Shown piece after piece: positions 10,808 through 57,600 of a DNA stretch of 64,000 nucleotides. The notes under the pieces are model-generated. The model was given only the letters and a program-made list of their open reading frames with translations, searched no databases and was not told the DNA's origin. The stretch is from Ulota crispa. Lineage: Eukaryota > Streptophyta > Bryopsida > Orthotrichales > Orthotrichaceae. Each line of letters opens with the position of its first letter. Position 1 is the stretch's first letter. The translations under genes and the position numbers were made by a program. The stretch covers positions 7,566,501-7,630,500 of the forward strand of contig OY987244.1 in the NCBI GenBank assembly GCA_963920765.1, read 5' to 3'.

Positions 10808-11461
10808 TCAACTAACCAATGACTTGTCCTTATCACTTTTGAAATACTCAACCATAATAGGGTTTTTTTGTATATCTTCCAAAGTGACTTCTATCACTTC
10901 TTTCACTTGCAAGTCTTCTTCCAACTTTGCAATCATTTCAAGACTGATTTGCTTGTCACGCTTAGCCAAATGGTTCACCAACAAGAAAAATAGAGGTGTT
11001 GGAACTTTTTCTTTAGTCTTGGCTCCAAACAACTTGAAGAGACCTCGTAATACTGAAACAAAGCTCTTGGTTGTGCAAGTGAGCAAAAGCAAGATGAACT
11101 CCTTGGGATCCACAAGATCTGAGGGAAAATTTGCCAACTTGAAGACATTGTCAATGGCAGCATCATGGACTTTGACTTTCTTTGCAATCTCTGCCAATGG
11201 CTTTTGGTTAATGTATTCAAGGTCCTTGGTTTGTTGATAGAAGTCAATCAATTGCTCCATTGTGGGCGGAGGAGCTGTGACGTCCAATTTGACCATTGTC
11301 AAAAGACTTTGAAAATACTCCAATGCAAACTCTTCCAAATTCTCTGGTTGTACTCGAATAACTTCTTTGGCAAATGTTTTGAGCAATATTGGTAATCCAT
11401 TGGGAATTTTGATTTGCTCAACACAATAGATTGGCTCTTGATCAAGAAGAGATTTTGACAT
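10808..11461 (-). CDS. Ropporin/RSP11-like RIIa-domain protein
   Basis: The gene encodes 217 residues in one exon. Residues about 18-55 form an RIIa dimerization/docking fold: IPNGLPILLKTFAKEVIR, then QPENLEEFALEYFQSL. This matches the N-terminus of ropporin, SPA17 and Chlamydomonas RSP11. The similarity runs the full length: FKLANFPSDLVD corresponds to the NLPTDL segment of human ropporin, and the C-terminal VTLEDIQKNPIMVEYF to its TVNDFTQNP segment. Length also fits (ropporin is about 212 residues). Known members sit in the radial-spoke and fibrous-sheath apparatus of cilia and sperm flagella and bind AKAP-type helices. The start at 11461 is preferred over an in-frame codon 24 bases upstream because the RIIa domain is usually near the N-terminus. 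The lack of introns contrasts with the other two genes and may mean a retrocopy, but the frame is fully open and no poly(A) tract is seen. The family is well supported; the exact orthologue is inferred. Confidence 0.8.
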   Translation of the reverse strand: MSKSLLDQEPIYCVEQIKIPNGLPILLKTFAKEVIRVQPENLEEFALEYFQSLLTMVKLDVTAPPPTMEQLIDFYQQTKDLEYINQKPLAEIAKKVKVHDAAIDNVFKLANFPSDLVDPKEFILLLLTCTTKSFVSVLRGLFKLFGAKTKEKVPTPLFFLLVNHLAKRDKQISLEMIAKLEEDLQVKEVIEVTLEDIQKNPIMVEYFKSDKDKSLVS

Positions 11462-11540
11462 GATGTTGTGTATTTTATAACACAATCCAGAACATACTCA
11501 CCACCATCCTCAACAATTATTTAGTTGCTTACTTCTTTAT

Positions 11541-20700: not shown

Positions 20701-22840
20701 TTAGAGGGCACACTTATGGAGACCCTCGCAAGGATGGATGCTCCTACCTTAGTCACAAGTGTATTGGCATTGAACAAATTAGGGTTCCTCGTTTCACATT
20801 CACTAACAAGTACCGGTTAAAGCTGCTCTAAATAATTTAACAGGAAACAAAGTCCATTGCATACTATCTAGTAGCCAATAGCAACATATACATCATGGTT
20901 GCTTACTCTTACACAGTTTGAAAGCAAGTTCAGAATTTGATTGTAAAATTATAAAGTCTAACACCAATATTTCAATCCTCCTTGCACCAATTCTTATTAT
21001 AAATCTCAAATGTAATGACACAGTATAATGCACAGTGGACAATTTTTAATTCTAACTAAACTTGCTTGTACATCACACACTTATAAAATATAGGAAGCAT
21101 AGAATAAAATTAAAAAATTAATAGGTATTTCTTTCTTACCTCCCAATAGGGCAAGTCATGTAAAGCAGACCGACGCTTCACTCCATGCTCTTGGACCGGA
21201 TTGTTATCTGCACCATGCTTCCCTCCCCCTGCAACATATGCGTCTTGTTCTTCCCCGTACCTCTTCAATTCAGTTCCACTTATCCTTTTGGGAGCATTTC
21301 TTCTCTCCACTTGCCCATTAAAATCAAGGTCAATATGATACAAGTGGGAATTTCTGGTCCACCTTCTACTACCTAAGTAGATCATCTTCCTTCCCTTTGC
21401 TCGCCTATGAAAATCCAAGTTATTGCCTAATGCAGCGCATTTGGAGTCTGTTTCCGGACCACACATTGTGCATGCTTTGTACACATGGGTACACAAACCA
21501 GATATCAAACCATAAGTAGGGTATTCAGATATTGTCCACAAAAGAATATTCCTCAGCCTAAAGTCTCTAGAACCGGGTGGCTTTGAGAAATCTTGTGCTA
21601 TCACACCCCTCCATAGCTTCTGCAACTCCTCAATCAATGGGCTAATGAAGACATCAATATTTTTGTTTGTTGGTGACAATTTACCAGAAATTAATATACT
21701 GAGCTGAATGAAGAATTTCTTGGTAATTAAATTCGGTGGGAGGTTGTAGATAAGAAGTAAAATGAGCCAGGTAGAATGACTTGTACTACTGTGCGAGAAA
21801 GGGTTAACTCCATCTAATGACATCCCAAGTCTGATGTTCCTAGCGTCAGCACCAAAACTAGGGTCAATCTCTTCATGCACATGCTTCCAAGCCGGACTGT
21901 CTACAACAGACTTCATTATAGTAGAGTCAGTGTTGGGATTATCTAAGTGGAAACGCAGCAACATTGCTATAGCTGGTGAACAATACATTTGGAGCAATCG
22001 TGGGATTAGAGGGAAATGACAAACAACTCTAGCAGGTATGACATCTGACCCTTCAATGTACCTCGACTTCCCACAACCAACATTTGGACATTGCTGTAGG
22101 CTCTCTTTATCACCACGGAATAGCACACAGCCATCTGGGCAAGCATGAATGACGTCATAATGAAGTCCAAGTTTCTTTATAATTTTTTTGGCTTCATAGT
22201 GACTTCTAGGAAGGCAATTATTTGTGGGAAGCAGTACCTTAGAAAGAAACTTGAACAACTCATCCACAAATGTATTGCTAACGCCATGAATAACACCCAT
22301 GTTTATCAAGACTCTAGTAGCTAAGATGATGCTAACATTCACACCTTCATACACTGGTTGCGTTGCTTCCTCGAACAAGTAGTCAAGTCGGTCTAAACCG
22401 TCTTCCATTCCATCATCCTCTGCAGCTTCATTGTCCATGACGGTACTACAATCCCGCAATTGATCACCGACTTCTAATGCATCAAATAGCTGTTGCTGCA
22501 CATTGTGGAACGGATCAAGCTGCTTAGCATACTCACAATGGAGATCTGAGTTGTCAAAGACGTTTGTATTTGGTATTTCTTCACCGAAAGCATTCACCCA
22601 CATCCCCTTGTCTGGGTAACCGCACTGTGGATCCCCTCCCAACATTGATTGCATCAGGTATGAATCCCTTCCGTGAATTTGCAAATGCTCACGTATGGAC
22701 TTAGGGGTGTATCATTTTCCACCATGGCAATGTTTGCATGGACAATGGTATGAAGTAAGTCCATGCGACTTTGCCATCCGTTGCTCAGTTTCCAAAATCA
22801 TATCTTCCTTTGATACATGTATAGCAAACCCGCCCAGCAT
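17721..22840 (-). pseudogene. CACTA tnp2-type transposase (TnpD-like), multi-exon and decayed
   Basis: The first ATG I favour is at 22840. The N-terminus carries a Transpos_assoc-type zinc motif (CPCKHCHGGK, then SIREHLQIHGRD). A TGA stop at 22712-22714 interrupts it. From 22684 to 21110 the frame is open and holds the Transposase_21 (tnp2) core: NIRLGMSLDGVNPF, YNLPPN, IEELQKLWRGV and ACTMCGP. Downstream stretches continue the family order: HCEKNVAKNV near 19930, LKSHDYHVLIQQ near 19630, and a DUF4218 domain at 19301-18942 (FPPSFMDVMMHLTIHLVEE, CGPVHCQWMYPMERYM). DUF4216 follows, starting near 18090 (FVGIIKEILELDY) and continuing through RDRYGFTLANFSA and FAFPTQCQQIFFSDDV near 17900. These pieces are separated by probable introns and some decay. 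In life this protein would bind subterminal repeats and catalyse cut-and-paste transposition. Assignment is firm; exon borders are not. Confidence 0.85.
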
Positions 22841-45779: not shown

Positions 45780-46340
45780 GCAAAATACAATGCCCTCCAA
45801 CAAGTCCTCATACACCCTACTTTGCTTTTAAAGAACTTTGCTAATGTAATTGGTATTTTTTTGGTTTTGAAGCATAGAAATTTGATTCTTATGCAATCTC
45901 AATCAAGCATACCAAATTTTGATTCCTCAAAACCAAAACCTCATTTTTGGTGAATTGTTTTGTATTAAATTCATGGTTTTACATGATAGTTGATTAAAAA
46001 ATATTGGTGATGAATTTCTAAGAAGTAATTGCATGGGTATGTAGGAAACATCCATACTCACATGTTCTATGCTAAAAAGGACCCCCTTAAGTAACAAAAA
46101 AATGATCTACAAAGGTTTCAATGTAACTTGTGATATGCTCAAATTTTGTAAAATAGATATTTTTCACTTTTAACTAGCTTTTCACCAAATATACACAACA
46201 TCATGTTGAAAGATACATACTTAGTCACAATTTTTGAATCAAATAGCAAAATTTGATTATCAAAAAGAAATATCTATTAGCAAAATCCTTTGAATGACAA
46301 ATAAGATATATGAGGACTTGTTGGAGGGCACTATACACTA
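45780..46340. mobile_element. Inverted-repeat element with GCCCTCCAACAAG termini
   Basis: ATGCCCTCCAACAAGTCCTC at about 45790 is the reverse complement of the right end near 46312-46332 (GAGGACTTGTTGGAGGGCA). The inside (about 45880-46080) is a diverged relative of the arm of the large foldback at 51680-51860, sharing GCAATC, ATCAAGCAT, TTGGTGATGAATTT and GCATGGGTATGT in order. It is non-coding and lies in the 3' flank of LAS1. Confidence 0.65.
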
Positions 46341-47024: not shown

Positions 47025-47925
47025 CCCCTAAAGCCTTGATCAGTACAAGCGAGCAATGTCAATTTGGATATTTTTAGTCAATTAGGTCACGCTAATTTGG
47101 ACACTATTTTGTCAATTTAGACATGTTTTTGTCAAATTTTTGTCAATTTGGACATGTCATTGTGAACAATTTTTCTTGTAGTGAGCTAACTAGCACCCTT
47201 TTTTGGCAACACAGCAAGTTTGGGTAGCTCACTATCAATGGATTTCTCATTTCTTTTCTTTGAAATTTTCACACATGATGTGTCAAAGGAGTAGCTTTAA
47301 GGTTCAACAAATTTCATAACTTTTAACTTCATGGTTCAAAAGTTATTGCATGACATGTTGTTTTCTTTGCTCGGTGGGCAACTTGGGCAGCTCATAAAAA
47401 TTTCTTTAAAAATTACATTTTTTTGAATTTCTTTTTTGGATTTTTTTTAAGATTTAAATATATGTGGGACGTTTTGAATCATTCAATTGTGATTAATGAA
47501 ATGAAAGTTATGAGGAGTTTTAGTTTGGGGGTCGGTATGGAGTCTCTCAAAACCATACCTACCATGCCTATTGCCAAACTAAAACTCCTCATAACTTTCA
47601 TCTCATTAATCACAATTGAATGATTCAAAGCTTCCCAAGTATATTTAAATCTTAAAAACTAATTTCAAAAAAAAATTCAAAAGAATGTAATTTTTGAAGA
47701 AGTTTTTAGGAGCTGCCCAAGCTACCTGCTAAGCAAAGAAAACAACATATCATGCAATAACTTTTGAACCATGAAGTTAAAAGTTATGAAATTTGTAGGA
47801 CATTAAAGCTACTCCTTTGACGTATCATGTGCAAAAATTTCAAAGAAAAAAAAAGAGAAATCCATTGATAGTGAGCTACCCAAAATGGCTATGTTGCCAA
47901 AAAAGGGTACTATGGGCTTTAGGGG
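47025..47925. mobile_element. Foldback element 1, TTAA-type termini, interrupted by a CACTA end
   Basis: The left end is TTAA (47021-47024) then CCCCTAAAGCC. The right end is GGGCTTTAGGGG then TTGA (47926-47929), one base off. About 47190-47545 and 47555-47910 are reverse complements with scattered differences, including GTTATGAGGAGTTTTAGTTT and its mirror. The left arm carries about 145 extra bases (47036-47183) ending in a CACTA terminus. It belongs to the same family as 50266-50985 but is more diverged, so older. Confidence 0.8.
47045..47183 (-). mobile_element. Solitary CACTA terminus inserted in foldback element 1
   Basis: On minus it begins CACTACAAGAAAAATTG at 47183, a classic plant CACTA end. 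Several subterminal GTCCAAATTGAC/GTCTAAATTGAC copies follow within 130 bases. No second end was found, so this is a very short derivative or a fragment. Confidence 0.55.
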
Positions 47926-48376: not shown

Positions 48377-49006
48377 CCCCTAAATGCCCAAGACTTTTTT
48401 TGAGTTTCTAGGAATTTGCTCTAAAATGAACAAAAAGCCATCATGATAACTTGTATCAATTTTTTTTGAATTTTAACTATACAAATTCAAAATAGATATT
48501 TTAGACATCACATAGGAAAAGAAATCATAACAATACCCCTTATGGATTGAAAGATTATAACGTTTGATCAAGAGGGTGTTAAAATTGCAAAAATGACTTC
48601 AAGTCTTTCAATCCTCTTTTCACATATCAAATCCAAAATGTTGGTCACCAAAAATATATGAGGTTAAAGGATATAACATACATAACTCCAATCCATTTAT
48701 GGCTTTTCAAAATCTCTTTTACAATTTTTTGAAATGAATTTCTAGAGTGAATTTTTCTCCAAGATCTAGTGTATTTGAGGCTCATTTTCATGAGCTCTCA
48801 ACATTAAAAAAGTCAAGATTGCAATGGACACCCTTGCACAAAATCTTGAATAGAAAATTCACAATCAATAATTTTCAAAATCAGGTTTTTGATACTAAAA
48901 CTAGACTTCAAAAAGAATAATTCTAAAATACTAAATACTAAAAATAGCAACTTAGTTAGATTTTGTTGAACTTCAAAATATTATCGGTACCTTGAGCATT
49001 TAGGGG
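48377..49006. mobile_element. 630-bp TTAA-flanked element with CCCCTAAATGC termini
   Basis: TTAA (48373-48376) precedes CCCCTAAATGC. GCATTTAGGGG precedes TTAA (49007-49010). The 11 terminal bases are perfect reverse complements. The inside is not palindromic and has no coding potential. It is the cleanest two-ended member of the family that is not a foldback. Confidence 0.75.
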
Positions 49007-49449: not shown

Positions 49450-49885
49450 TCTATATGAATAATAAGGTAGGAGGCCTTTTAAATGGACCATCTAAGCAAA
49501 AGTGCGCTTCTGTGAAAAAATCCGGGCAACTTAGTAAAATGGAAATATTTTTGGTAGAAAGTCAAAGAAGAGATAGTTTTGTGGCCATTTAGTTTGAATT
49601 TTTTTGAGTTAGTATGAATTAGTACAATTTATCAAAGTAGAAAGTGCATAGGTAACTATTCTTGATCATAGGTGGTAGCATTCATGATGCAAAGACGGTT
49701 TGTAAATGGAGCACATGAGTCCTAAAAGCAACCACTACAAAGTCAAGAATGCTCCAATAAGGCTCTTAAAGCGTGCAAGCACCCATTCTGTATTCTAATA
49801 CTCAAATCATGATTGAGAACATGTTTTCATTTATTTTAGTATGACATATATAGTGACTATCAAAATTGTCTCAATGTTTGCTTAG

Positions 49886-51610
49886 CCCCTAAAGGACCAA
49901 GCCCTTTTTTCTGCCAAAAATTATTAAAAAATGCCACCTTTAGAAGGTTTAGAAAAAGGGGATTTTATGTTTTGTTTTTGGGAAATCCAACCATAGGATC
50001 TTGACCCAGACTGGAAGAGGTACTGTGGGAAAAAAATTAGCTCATTCCAAATGGAGAGGAGTGAGATATTTACATCCAAAGTGAAAAAAAAAGATTTTTT
50101 CCATGCTGCCCAAAAATTTCAAAAGCCTTTGACCACTCTTATAACAAAAAAATTGCTCTACCCAAAGTTGCACTTTATTTTTTACATGTAGGAGATCAAG
50201 TTAGGTATGTGTGGGAGAATTTTCAAATCAATTGGAAATATACAACACATGGGAAAAATCATTAACCCCTAAAGACCTAAGGGCCCTTTTTGGGGACAAA
50301 TGGAATTTCGGGCTTGTACCTATGGCTAAACTACTTTGCATGATTTTTTGAAACTTTTATTGAAGGTGAGGAATTCAAAGATCTATGTGGGAATGTAATT
50401 TTTTCTTCATTCCAACAATTATTGAAGAAGCTAAAAATGAATAACTGAAAAATAGGGGACTCCGGGCAGCCCAATTTTTTTTTTTTAAATTGCTTTTTTT
50501 TCAAATAAAAATCTGAAATAGGTTCTTTAGACTTATATAGACGTGGGGAGCTTTGAACCATTCAATTTTGATAGATGAGATGAAAGTTATGAGATGTTTT
50601 AGTTTGCAGGTAGGTGTGGTTTCTCTCAAAATCACACCTACCCGCAAACTAAAACATCTCATAACTTTCATCTCATCTATCAAAATTGAATGATTCAAAA
50701 CTCCCCATGTCTATATAAGTCTAAAGAACCTATTTCAGATTTTTTGTTGAAAAAAAAGCAATTTTTAAAGAATTTTTTGGGCTGCCCAGAGTCCCCTGTT
50801 TTCCATAAATTCATTTTTAGCTTCTTCAATAAATGTTGGAATGAAGAAAAAACTACATTCCCTTGTAGATCTTTGAATTCCTCACCTTCAATAAAATTTT
50901 CAAATAATCACGCAAAGTAGTTTAGCCATAGGTACATGCCCAAAATTCCATTTGTCCCCCAAAAAGGCCCTTGGGCCTTTAGGGGTTAAGTAAAAAGAAG
51001 TAGAAAATTAGTCAAAACAATAAACTATTAAAATTTTAATTATGGAAATGAAAAATGCTAATCCCAACAATGCTAATGTTGTGATAATCAATCTACTTCC
51101 TTCTATTTAAAAATATTTTTCCAAAATATTGAAAATTGAGTAAAATAAAGGACTTTAAAGTTTATTTTAGAGTAGAGATTCCATAACCGCTTGCAAACAA
51201 AAACTTGTCATAACTTTCATCTCATTGATTGAAATTGAATGATTCAAAGCTTCTTACCTATATAAAAGTCTAAAGAACCAATTTCAGATTTTAATTTTTA
51301 AAAAAAGTAAATTTTAAAGAAGTTTTTGGGTTGCGCAGATGGGCAGTCCTCCCCAAATTTTCATAAATTCATGCATAACTTCTTCATCAAATGTTGGAAT
51401 GAAGAAAAAATTAGATGCCCACGTAGATCTTTGAATTCCCCACCTTCAATAAAAGTTTCAAAAAATCACACAATGTAGTTTAGCCATAGGTACATGCCCA
51501 AAGTCCAACCTGTCCCTCAAAGGGACAATGGTCCTTTAGGGGTTAGTTTAGCCATAGGTACATGCCCAAAGTCCAACCTGTCCCTCAAAGGGACAATGGT
51601 CCTTTAGGGG
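49886..51610. mobile_element. 1.7-kb element with CCCCTAAAGGACCA termini and TTAG duplication
   Basis: The left end CCCCTAAAGGACCA at 49886 and the right end TGGTCCTTTAGGGG at 51610 are 14-bp perfect inverted repeats. TTAG flanks both sides (49882-49885 and 51611-51614). The opposite arm of the host palindrome preserves the uninterrupted site, read on minus at about 52380-52355 as GTTTGCTTAGATGCCAAG with a single TTAG. The element is composite: it contains foldback 50266-50985, and its right third (51165-51610) is a relative of that foldback's right arm. Non-coding. Confidence 0.85.
50266..50985. mobile_element. 720-bp near-perfect palindromic foldback with TTAA duplication
   Basis: TTAA flanks both ends (50262-50265 and 50986-50989). 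The termini are CCCCTAAAG and CTTTAGGGG. The two halves mirror each other about 50625-50640: GTAGGTGTGGT, a short TTTCTCTCAAAA centre, then ACCTAC. The same short frame occurs on both strands at the two outer ends. It lies inside the element at 49886-51610, so it is younger than that insertion. Confidence 0.88.
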
Positions 51611-51613
51611 TTA
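51478..51613. repeat. 68-bp direct duplication at the element's right end
   Basis: A unit from GTTTAGCCATAGGTACATG to CCTTTAGGGGTTA occurs twice with no visible difference (51478-51545 and 51546-51613). It duplicates the terminus together with the first three bases of the target site. Confidence 0.92.
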
Positions 51614-52924
51614 GACGCCAAGTTTATTTCAATATCTCCACTATATATAAGTGGCATTTTATCCTCAGATTTTTTGTGTGTGATCCTTGTGCAATCATGA
51701 TCAAGCATGCCAAATTTCAATTACTAAAAACCAAAATCCTATTTTTGGTAAATGGTTTTGTGTCAAAATCAAGAAAGTTGATCAAAAACATTGGTGATGA
51801 ATTTTTAAGATTTGATTGCATGGGTATGTTGGAGACATCCATAAGCACATCTTTGCTTCAAACAAATATTTCCAAAAAATTCTAAAAAAAATTCTAAAAA
51901 AAATTTAAATTTAGGCCAAATTTAATAAACTTGATAATTCTTCATGGAGTCTATTTTTGGCAAAATAACTCATATATTGTGATTGAGTTTGTACCTTTAA
52001 ACATGATGATATGTTTATTTTGCCAAAAATTAGATTCCATGAAGAATTATCAAGTTTACTAAATTTGGCCTAAATTTAAATTATGTTTAGAATTTTTTAG
52101 AATTTTTTTGGAAATATTTGTTTGAAGCAAAGATGTGCTTATGGATGTCTCCAACATACCCATGCAATCAAATCTTAAAAATTCATCACCAATGTTTTTG
52201 ATCAACTTTCTTGATTTTGACACAAAACCATTTACCAAAAATAGGATTTTGGTTTTTAGTAATTGAAATTTGGCATGCTTGATCATGATTGCACAAGGAT
52301 CACACACAAAAAATCTGAGGATAAAATGCCACTTATATATAGTGGAGATATTGAAATAAACTTGGCATCTAAGCAAACGTTGAGACAATTTTGGTAGTCA
52401 CTATAGACAAATTTGAACACAATCATGACTAATAAGCGCACTTGTAGTGGCTCAGTCTTAAGTTCCTAAAACAATGAATACACAAATGCAATTTCTGAAC
52501 ATAGAAAATGTGACCCATTTAAAAACCTTTGTGCACTATTTTTGTGACCCTTACATGATCCATTCAAAATGCCCGGTCCAAAGTCAAGCTTCCTACCTTA
52601 TTCATTGTCTTTAGTGTCATTGTTGCTTGTCTGATGTAGTAAGGGTTTTTTTTTTTGCAATTATTCACTAAAAAGAAATACAAGTGTTTTGAGAGAATCT
52701 TTGGCAATGTATTTTTTTTTATAGATGGAATTGCTCAATTGCTCCACAATCTTGAGATAATATTACTCATTTTAAGAAACATGGATTGTTTTGCCAAGAG
52801 TTGGGTTTTCATCCTTATTTTTGCATGTGGCATTCATATGCATGGATGTAAATAGCTTTGTCACTCTAGCAAGTATTGCTTTGTGCACTGCCAAAATTTG
52901 AATGAAAAAAACTTATATGTGACG

Positions 52925-54617: not shown

Positions 54618-57600
54618 TTAAGCGTCCAAAGGATAGAGAGCCGTTTGTATTCTGCGAAGAGCGACCTTGATGCGTTCTTTGAGGGTGTCATCTTTACACT
54701 CAATGCCCTTTTTGGCGTGGTCTACAACGGCAACGGTGCCATCCATGGTGACAGTCAAGGTCTGCAGCTTCCCATCCAGCGCCACGTCACCGAACAACGA
54801 CACCAGCAGGGAGTGAACGATTTTGATCTCGTCTTTTTCTTTGGCACGGCCGACGGCGAACATGGCCTGGGAGTCGAGCTTGAGGATCATGGCGACCACG
54901 GCGTCCGCCACCATGTCGCTGATGGGGTCCGACACCCACTGCAGCACCACGTAGTCGGCGCCCTCGTGCGTCACCGTCAGGTTGCCGTGCACCGTGAGCG
55001 TGGGGCTGTCAGCCTTGGCCACCGCCTCCACCTGCTCGTACATCTGCTGCAGCCGGTGCCGCAGCACCGTGAACGTGCCCTTGTACGGCACCGACTGCCG
55101 CTGCATGACGCTGCCGGTCGCCAGCTGCGTGAAGCTGTGCAGATCCTCCGGCGCCATCAGCTGGTACGTGAACCCCTTGCGCACCAACAGCCCGCTCACC
55201 ACGTCCCCCTCCTGCGCTGGCTTCTCCGCCAGCCGCCCCACCGCCTTCGCAATCTTCTCGCCCTTGAAATGCATCTCCACCGTTTGGCAGTTCTTCGGTG
55301 ACAGCACCTGCACATGGCCGAGTCAAAACCAACACTTAAACGGGATATTAGGTAGATGCAACTCTTTTTGTGAAGTGTGAACTATCATGTTTTCAAGCTG
55401 GTGTAACGTGCCATCGACCTTTCTTTTTTCCCATAATACTACAATACACTCTTGTCATATTAAGCTTCTCATCATAACTTCTAAACCTTTTTTTCCCTCC
55501 CATGAAGAAGTTGATTTTAAACAAGACTCAACATCTCCACCATTTGGCAGTTCTTGGGTGACAGCACCTGAACATCCCATTGGCTTGGCCGAGTCAAAAC
55601 CAACACTTAAACAAGATGTTAGGTATATGGAGTTACGCAACTATTTGTGCAGTGTGATTTCAAGCTGGTGTAACAAGCCATCTACCCCTTTTTTTTTCCC
55701 ATATCACTACAATACACTCTTGTCATAGTAAGCTTCTCATCATAACTTCTAAACCTTTTTTTTCCCTCCCATGAAGAAGTTGACTTTTAAACAAGACTCC
55801 ATAAATAAAATGTTTACTCCATATCTACCTAATATGGGGTTGACTTGCTCCAGTGGCAGTAGCAATAACCAGAGCACAGTCCTTGCAAAATTAAGGCTGG
55901 AGGCGCACTGACCTTCACGTTTTGGTCTGCAAACTGGGTGATGAGCTTGGCTTTCAAGCGTCCCATCTCGTTGGCCTCGCCGTGGACGAGGATGATGTTC
56001 GGTGGCCTGAGCTCGTGCAGAAACGCGCTTGTTTGAGTGAAGTCCGCGTGGGCGGAGAAGGAGATGTAATGAACTTGCATGTTCAAAGGCACCACCAGGC
56101 CACTGAGGAGAGTCACCTCCTTGGGCTCATTCATGATGGTCTTGGCGAGTGTTCCCTCCACTACATACCCCGGGATGACACACGAGTTCTTCTTGTCCTG
56201 GCACCAAATGTCGAAGAGCTGTCTGGATAGCCCACTTTGCAGGCTGCCTGGAGAGGCCATCACCACCGCGGGCCCTACGTCGTCGAACTCGTCAATGTTT
56301 TTCAAGGGGTGAATGTGCTTGAAGTCGAAGGGGTTTGAGACCTGATTTCAAAACCACAGATCAGTACAATATACCCTCCACACTAAGTAGCGCACATTTT
56401 CTCACTGGTGTGTTAAAAAGTCTATTGGCCAGTTCAAAGGTAACTTATCCAAAATGGGAAGAGTTACGCTTTGGAGTTCACTAAAGTGCTGCTACTTGGC
56501 TCTGGTGGGCATAGGCAAAGTTCGTTTTACGAGTCCAAGATTGAGTTCAGCGAACTAATGAATGTGAACTCTTTGTAATTACAAAACGGAAACACTTGCA
56601 AAACACGAAAAAAAACACATTTTTTCATAAATATGAAAAGACCGAAAAAAAATAAAATAAAATAAAATAAATTGAGTTTTATTCCTATGGTCTGGACGCA
56701 AGAAATTAAGGATCTGGGACAAGTGTACCTCGAACTGCTTCTGAATACGGTCGTTCATGGCGTTGATGTACGTCTGATACACTGCCATGCACTTCTTCGC
56801 CAGAGGGGATGCGTAGTGGATAGGTATGTGTTGAAGCTCAGGGTGCGCCTCCCAATATTCGTCCAGAATCAAAAGCAGCTCTTGCGCTCTTCCAAGGGCG
56901 AAGGCAGGAATCAGGACCTTACCACCCTGTTGACAGGTCATTCAGTTGTCGTATGTTACAAGCCCTTCGAGCATAAAAATTAACTAAAAAGACGAGAACC
57001 TCAAGAGAACACGACAAGTAATTCACCTGCACTTGACTCCAGTTATCAAATAAACTACAAAATCAAAGCAGAGCTTGCATCACTATAATAACATCACACT
57101 CGCATGTGCAAGTATTCTTTATGTTTGTCCAAACAAGTCTTGAAAACAAGAGCTTTCAACCATATATTCAGAAATCCAGCAATGTTTATCAAAAGTTGGA
57201 GAGCTGTTCTTTGCGGTTTTCCACTTTGTCAAGTCAATCATGGAAAAAAAAATCTCGACAATGGATGATAAAAAGACATGACAAAACATTTTGTGAACTT
57301 TCTTGTCTGTTTGACCATTTTGTGGAGTGCTTCAAATACCATCAGCCCGCAGAATGATCAAAATGATAACATCACTTAATTTACTTATTGTTAAATGACT
57401 TGCCACCTTGTCCTGTGGACTCCAAATAGCTATGCCTTGGTCTCGACTATTTGCTTCCCTTTCAGATCTAGTAACATTTTTCTTATCATCAAACTTGTAT
57501 GAAGCAATGTACACCAGCCCTCAGAAGCCCAAAAGATCCACAGGGCTCATCTTCTAAGCCAAGAGGTATGGCACCTTCAAACATTCAGAGACCAAACTAC

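Follow-up and report, generated by a model that had tools for sequence, protein, structure and literature searches.

The window, by which we mean the whole 64,000-nt stretch of Ulota crispa DNA that was analysed, contains a foldback element, one arm of which is interrupted by a 1,725-bp insert with TTAG on each side (Table 1). Exons of a CPSF73-type mRNA 3'-end endonuclease (PF11718, PF07521, PF10996) are found at 54621-56347 on the minus strand, and a sequence is duplicated around 55272-55790, within this gene region. Also on the minus strand are an open frame with an En/Spm-type transposase domain (21113-22711; Transposase_21, PF02992, E 6.4e-56), retroelement polyprotein pieces (28-1328; rve, Pol_BBD) and an open frame with a RIIa domain (10811-11497; PF02197, E 2.4e-06). 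The segment at 45883-46066 is approximately 78% identical to part of an arm of the foldback element and is perhaps an older relative of it. A 630-bp neighbour at 48377-49006 possesses the same kind of ends as the insert (CCCCTAAATG...) and, like the element nested within the insert but unlike the insert itself, carries TTAA on each side. A 901-bp neighbour at 47025-47925 has CCCCTAAAGCC ends and is flanked by TTAA and TTGA, probably one mutated duplication.

Table 1. Features of the foldback element and its insert, in window coordinates.
Feature	Position	Strand	Remark
Host foldback MITE	49849..52405	.	approximately 828 bp without the insert and one TTAG; TA as the first two bases at each edge; shared start in genome copies, unrelated outer flanks
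Left copy of TTAG target duplication	49882..49885	+	
Insert	49886..51610	+	probable non-autonomous piggyBac-type element, with nested element and 68-bp terminal duplication
Left 14-bp inverted end	49886..49899	+	CCCCTAAAGGACCA
Nested 720-bp foldback element	50266..50985	.	same end type as the insert; TTAA at 50262-50265 and 50986-50989
Two identical 68-bp tandem units	51476..51611	+	
Inner copy of right inverted end	51529..51542	-	followed by TTAG; possible original terminus
Right 14-bp inverted end	51597..51610	-	present-day terminus
Right copy of TTAG target duplication	51611..51614	+	
Mirror arm	52015..52405	-	empty-site reference
Single TTAG of mirror arm	52369..52372	-	empty site; CTAA on the plus strand

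What does the uninterrupted arm of the palindrome reveal about the arrival of the insert? The initial annotation had proposed that this mirror arm preserves the empty site and that the insertion duplicated four bases, TTAG. We aligned the left arm, with the insert and one TTAG removed, to the reverse complement of 52405-52015, and both proposals are borne out: the junction is without a gap, the mirror arm has a single TTAG and no insert, and the flanks match on both sides. Identity extends over 297 of 300 aligned positions, with 35 of 37 bases identical outside the TTAG site; the earliest three mismatches lie around the site, at aligned positions 11, 26 and 38 (numbering from 0), and are followed by 257 identical positions. 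The insert ends in the perfect 14-bp inverted repeat that had been described, CCCCTAAAGGACCA. The base 5' of the left TTAG is C, whereas the base 5' of the right TTAG is the final G of the insert, and because these differ, the duplication is exactly 4 bp, as first claimed, given symmetric ends. We agree that TTAG, not being self-complementary, is no artefact of the inverted termini, and it occurs once in the empty arm; on these two grounds chance or an inverted-end artefact was ruled out.

The claim that the empty arm also fixes the ends of the element needs qualification. The insert is a composite, consisting of a shell and a nested 720-bp foldback element with TTAA duplications that has many copies in the genome (40 of 11,148 candidates were scored). 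In a diverged copy of the shell, L079, the nested element is absent: its two matched pieces meet at that point, and GTAA is found where the window has TTAA. The right terminus of the insert, together with TTAG, is present twice, at 51529 and 51597, because of a perfect 68-bp tandem duplication (51476-51543 and 51544-51611), whereas L079 has a single 68-bp unit. Both joints of the duplication read TAG. The duplication may thus postdate the insertion, and the mobile unit may originally have terminated at 51542, not at 51610. The CCCTAAA in the insert ends recalls the telomere repeat, a likeness that we treat as coincidence. A four-unit TTTAGGG pattern has 1,188 and 587 matches in the genome and is found near both ends of contig 1, with one listed match near the start and a long array near the end (positions from the first 100 listed); with the CPSF73 gene and the En/Spm-type transposase of the window, these repeats suggest a plant source.

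To what family does the insert belong? Its ends have the form CCCCTAAAG, and in the genome (275 Mb in 157 contigs) the usual 4-mer preceding such an end is TTAA: the insert-type end after TTAA, TTAACCCCTAAAG, occurs 17,656 times, compared with 16 for the reversed-pattern control. The initial annotation had left the insert unassigned, to which can be added that TTAA is the normal target of its family and TTAG the exception. The insert is best read as a piggyBac-type MITE at a non-canonical target. The piggyBac transposase domain PF13843 has at least 120 matches in the genome (116 of 528 candidates scored) and none in 14 control genomes. The PF13843 match at L082, taken together with L083, has TTAACCCTTAGAGACCACCGG to its 5' side and TTAACCCTTTAGCGACCATGG to its 3' side, the two being approximately 6.6 kb apart, and we read them as the ends of a transposase element. 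The L082 protein matches piggyBac (6x67, E 4.1e-20), piggyBat (9c0f, E 5.8e-17) and PF13843 (E 8e-60). With up to three mismatches, TTAACCCTTTAGCGACCATGG occurs 985 times in the genome against 9 for the control, and 5 of 100 listed places are close to one of the 120 PF13843 matches, all five facing its 3' side at 1.5-2.4 kb. The ends of the insert are similar to the three main TTAACCCTTTAGCGACCATGG variants without being identical, the right end sharing 12, 13 and 14 of 17 bases with them and the left end 11, 12 and 13. The end variant of L076, picked as the closest, agrees at 13, 14 and 15 of 17. From 200,000 random sequences starting with CCC, 13, 14 and 15 of 17 were reached by 52, 6 and 1, respectively. 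The 5' end of the transposase element reaches 10 of 17, and two CCCTTCA-type ends reach 9 and 8. The 14-of-17 variant adjoins a PF13843 match on C6, and the 15-of-17 variant is without a transposase tie.

In the flanks of 20 PF13843 loci no transposase element with exact CCCCTAAAG ends was found, and a scan of the same loci for paired TTAA-like inverted ends returned none. The inverted ends of piggyBac MITEs are quoted as 12-19 bp long and tipped by CC[C/T]T (PMC2872659), compared with 14 bp and a CCCC tip in the insert. A piggyBac-type enzyme is the best, though unproven, candidate for moving the insert, since in those flanks no element with exactly the insert's ends was found to encode one. 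The Kolobok and Sola3 superfamilies also duplicate TTAA, and a member of either would have behaved in the same way at this locus. Such an origin would suit both the failure to find a CCCCTAAAG-ended transposase element in those 20 flanks and the departure of the CCCC end from the quoted motif, but piggyBac transposase genes are abundant here and adjoin ends of similar sequence; in this comparison, which covered piggyBac only, we regard a Kolobok or Sola3 origin as improbable.

The interrupted palindrome is itself a member of a repeated family. A genome search with the mirror arm gave at least 81 matches (40 of 3,194 candidates scored), in many of which the match begins at, or a few bases from, window position 52405, and the outer flanks of the copies look unrelated. 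Because the copies share edges but have unrelated flanks, the palindrome is an established repeat of approximately 830 bp that was not formed at this locus. We sampled 19 other copies (L010-L028), 18 of which yielded two usable arms, and 37 arms cover the site. The edge starts with TA, a candidate target duplication, in 35 of the 37 arms and with TACAGT in 17. These TA-edged, CAGTG-like ends resemble those of Tc1/mariner-type foldback MITEs, although the host is palindromic over nearly its whole length and no transposase was linked to it here. Arms are on average 95.2% identical within a copy (18 copies) and 92.7% between copies (153 pairs), and this higher within-copy likeness perhaps reflects arm-to-arm conversion; the two arms in the window rank with those of L014, L018 and L021 as some of the most similar.

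At the place of insertion, the 37 arms read TTAG in 31 cases, TTAA in four and TTTG in one, and one is partly deleted. The initial annotation had taken the empty arm to fix the order of events. Alone it is insufficient, because piggyBac can excise without a trace, but the order is supported by the family, because the palindrome is a repeat in which TTAG is uninterrupted in those 31 arms of 19 other copies. The mirror arm could instead be a seamlessly excised site, or the insertion could be older than the present palindrome. Footprint-free excision by piggyBac is possible, and flanks other than TTAA are tolerated when it occurs (PMC7351741), but the palindrome with its two arms is a family trait, the uninterrupted TTAG prevails among its arms, and no filled mirror arm was found among the 19 other copies, all of which makes this alternative very unlikely.

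Is TTAG a target of the insert family beyond this one copy? Single insert-type ends are preceded by TTAG in 388 places (reversed control 3), by CTAA in 380 (7), by TCAA in 419 (9) and by TTGA in 279 (5). Enrichment of TTAG among single ends was rejected, the TTAG and CTAA counts not being above that of TCAA. Single-end counts therefore do not support TTAG, and only matched pairs tell target from decay. A TTAG duplication appears as one TTAG-reading and one CTAA-reading end facing each other, and when 100 TTAG places (of 388) were compared with 86 CTAA places (of 380), there were 14 such pairs within 3 kb and none back-to-back, plus a single facing pair each of TTAG/TTAG and CTAA/CTAA. In the stretch common to the four lists, 12 TTAG/CTAA pairs (82 and 72 places) compare with no TCAA/TTGA pairs (100 and 52 places), and every other 4-mer combination gave 0 or 1.

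For the first 30 TTAG loci (L049-L078) we looked for a partner, by our reading a facing end no more than 1.5 kb away that differs at three or fewer of 16 bases. Of these loci, L049 and L050 share one flank sequence. The partner carried TTAG at six loci and TTAA at nine; it was other or ambiguous at four (L069, L070, and L071 with L072, which are one element), and none was found at 11. TTAG ends therefore come both from real targeting and from one-sided change. The element at L071 is flanked to the left by TTAG and to the right by CTAA, so that its pair is inverted and not direct. Taking 14-20% of the 388 ends over approximately 8,800 elements (from the 17,656 ends), or over the 63% of ends with a partner, the TTAG-target share of the family is, by rough extrapolation, approximately 0.6-1.4%. 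When the joined flanks of the matched TTAG elements L076 and L051 were searched, no junction-spanning match was present among the matches listed. Least credible of the alternatives, and in our view scarcely tenable, is entry at TTAA with both flanks later turned into TTAG, either by mutation or through conversion by the other arm: TTAA is indeed read at this place in a few host arms, the likeness of arms within copies may reflect conversion, and one-sided TTAG ends are many elsewhere (TTAG/TTAA in 9 of 30 loci), but this history calls for an identical change on each side of the insert and for a mirror arm that also reads TTAG, and independent change would not yield as many matched TTAG pairs as were counted (12, compared with 0 for TCAA/TTGA).

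It is thus very probable that a piggyBac-type non-autonomous element inserted at TTAG, in place of TTAA, in one arm of an older foldback MITE. The foldback MITE would have been present first, and a non-autonomous element with CCCCTAAAGG ends, whose usual site is TTAA, would have entered one of its arms, moved by a transposase, presumably of piggyBac type, supplied in trans from elsewhere in the genome. The TTAG target would have been cut with a 4-bp stagger and then duplicated, and the 68-bp terminal duplication would have followed, its TAG joints being consistent with this order. The one-TTAG mirror arm, the related arms that read TTAG, the inverted ends and the piggyBac genes beside similar ends support this explanation. 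Counting against it are the CCCCTAAAG-ended transposase element that was sought without success in the flanks of 20 loci, the CCCC tip, the single-end counts, TTAA in 4 of 37 arms and the flank searches for two other matched TTAG elements, which gave no second empty site. Most probably the insert moved by ordinary piggyBac-type transposition, to a minor target already known, and the unusual target seems to have been truly chosen at landing and not to have arisen by later mutation, because the mirror arm and most related copies keep an insert-free TTAG site.

TTAG is already published as a minor piggyBac target, and the value of the present case lies in its internal control and large family. 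A 2013 paper reportedly treats non-canonical piggyBac sites. In mouse cells, 93% of piggyBac insertions were at TTAA and the remaining sites often differed from it by a single base, CTAA, TTAG and TAAA being named (PMC3983033), and in Plasmodium insertions were at TTAA except for one TTAT and one TTAG (PMC2686711). TTAG is a minor target there as it is here, but those insertions were experimental and used a moth element, whereas this one is natural, in a plant-like genome and with an empty-site control. Natural animal piggyBac elements also depart from TTAA, with TTAG, CTAA, TCAA and other duplications, which that paper takes as probable mutation (PMC10813416); here, in contrast, the empty site points to TTAG target choice, and TCAA is without matched pairs in the stretch examined. 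The insert family is reminiscent of the piggyBac/TTAA MITEs of corals, the CMITEs, which have short inverted ends starting with CC, code for nothing, usually target TTAA and nest within one another, and for which filled and empty alleles are given as evidence of movement (PMC2872659). Unlike the CMITEs as described there, the elements here are longer, some have a nearly palindromic body, their ends start with CCCC, and this copy is at TTAG. In a C-Fern paper 1,230 copies are assigned to a PiggyBac repeat class, and in a moss paper (PMC10619864) 'piggybac' is the word piggybacking. A limited literature search brought up no empty-site proof for a natural TTAG insertion.

We lean, with some reserve, towards the view that a piggyBac-type enzyme repeatedly took TTAG as a second natural target over evolutionary time, at the small share of the family estimated above, while TCAA, a comparable one-base variant, is without matched insertions in the stretch covered. 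Unusual duplications flanking natural piggyBac elements have been put down to mutation (PMC10813416). A filled arm facing an empty one, together with 37 arms of 19 other copies, marks one odd duplication as a true target, and the matched TTAG pairs, which have no TCAA counterpart in the stretch common to the lists, indicate that TTAG targeting recurs. By pairing ends, of which 17,656 are canonical, one could measure natural target preference across the whole genome. If the view of a repeatedly used second target is correct, many thousands of such MITEs would preserve target specificity as a fossil record, and choice could be separated from decay in it.
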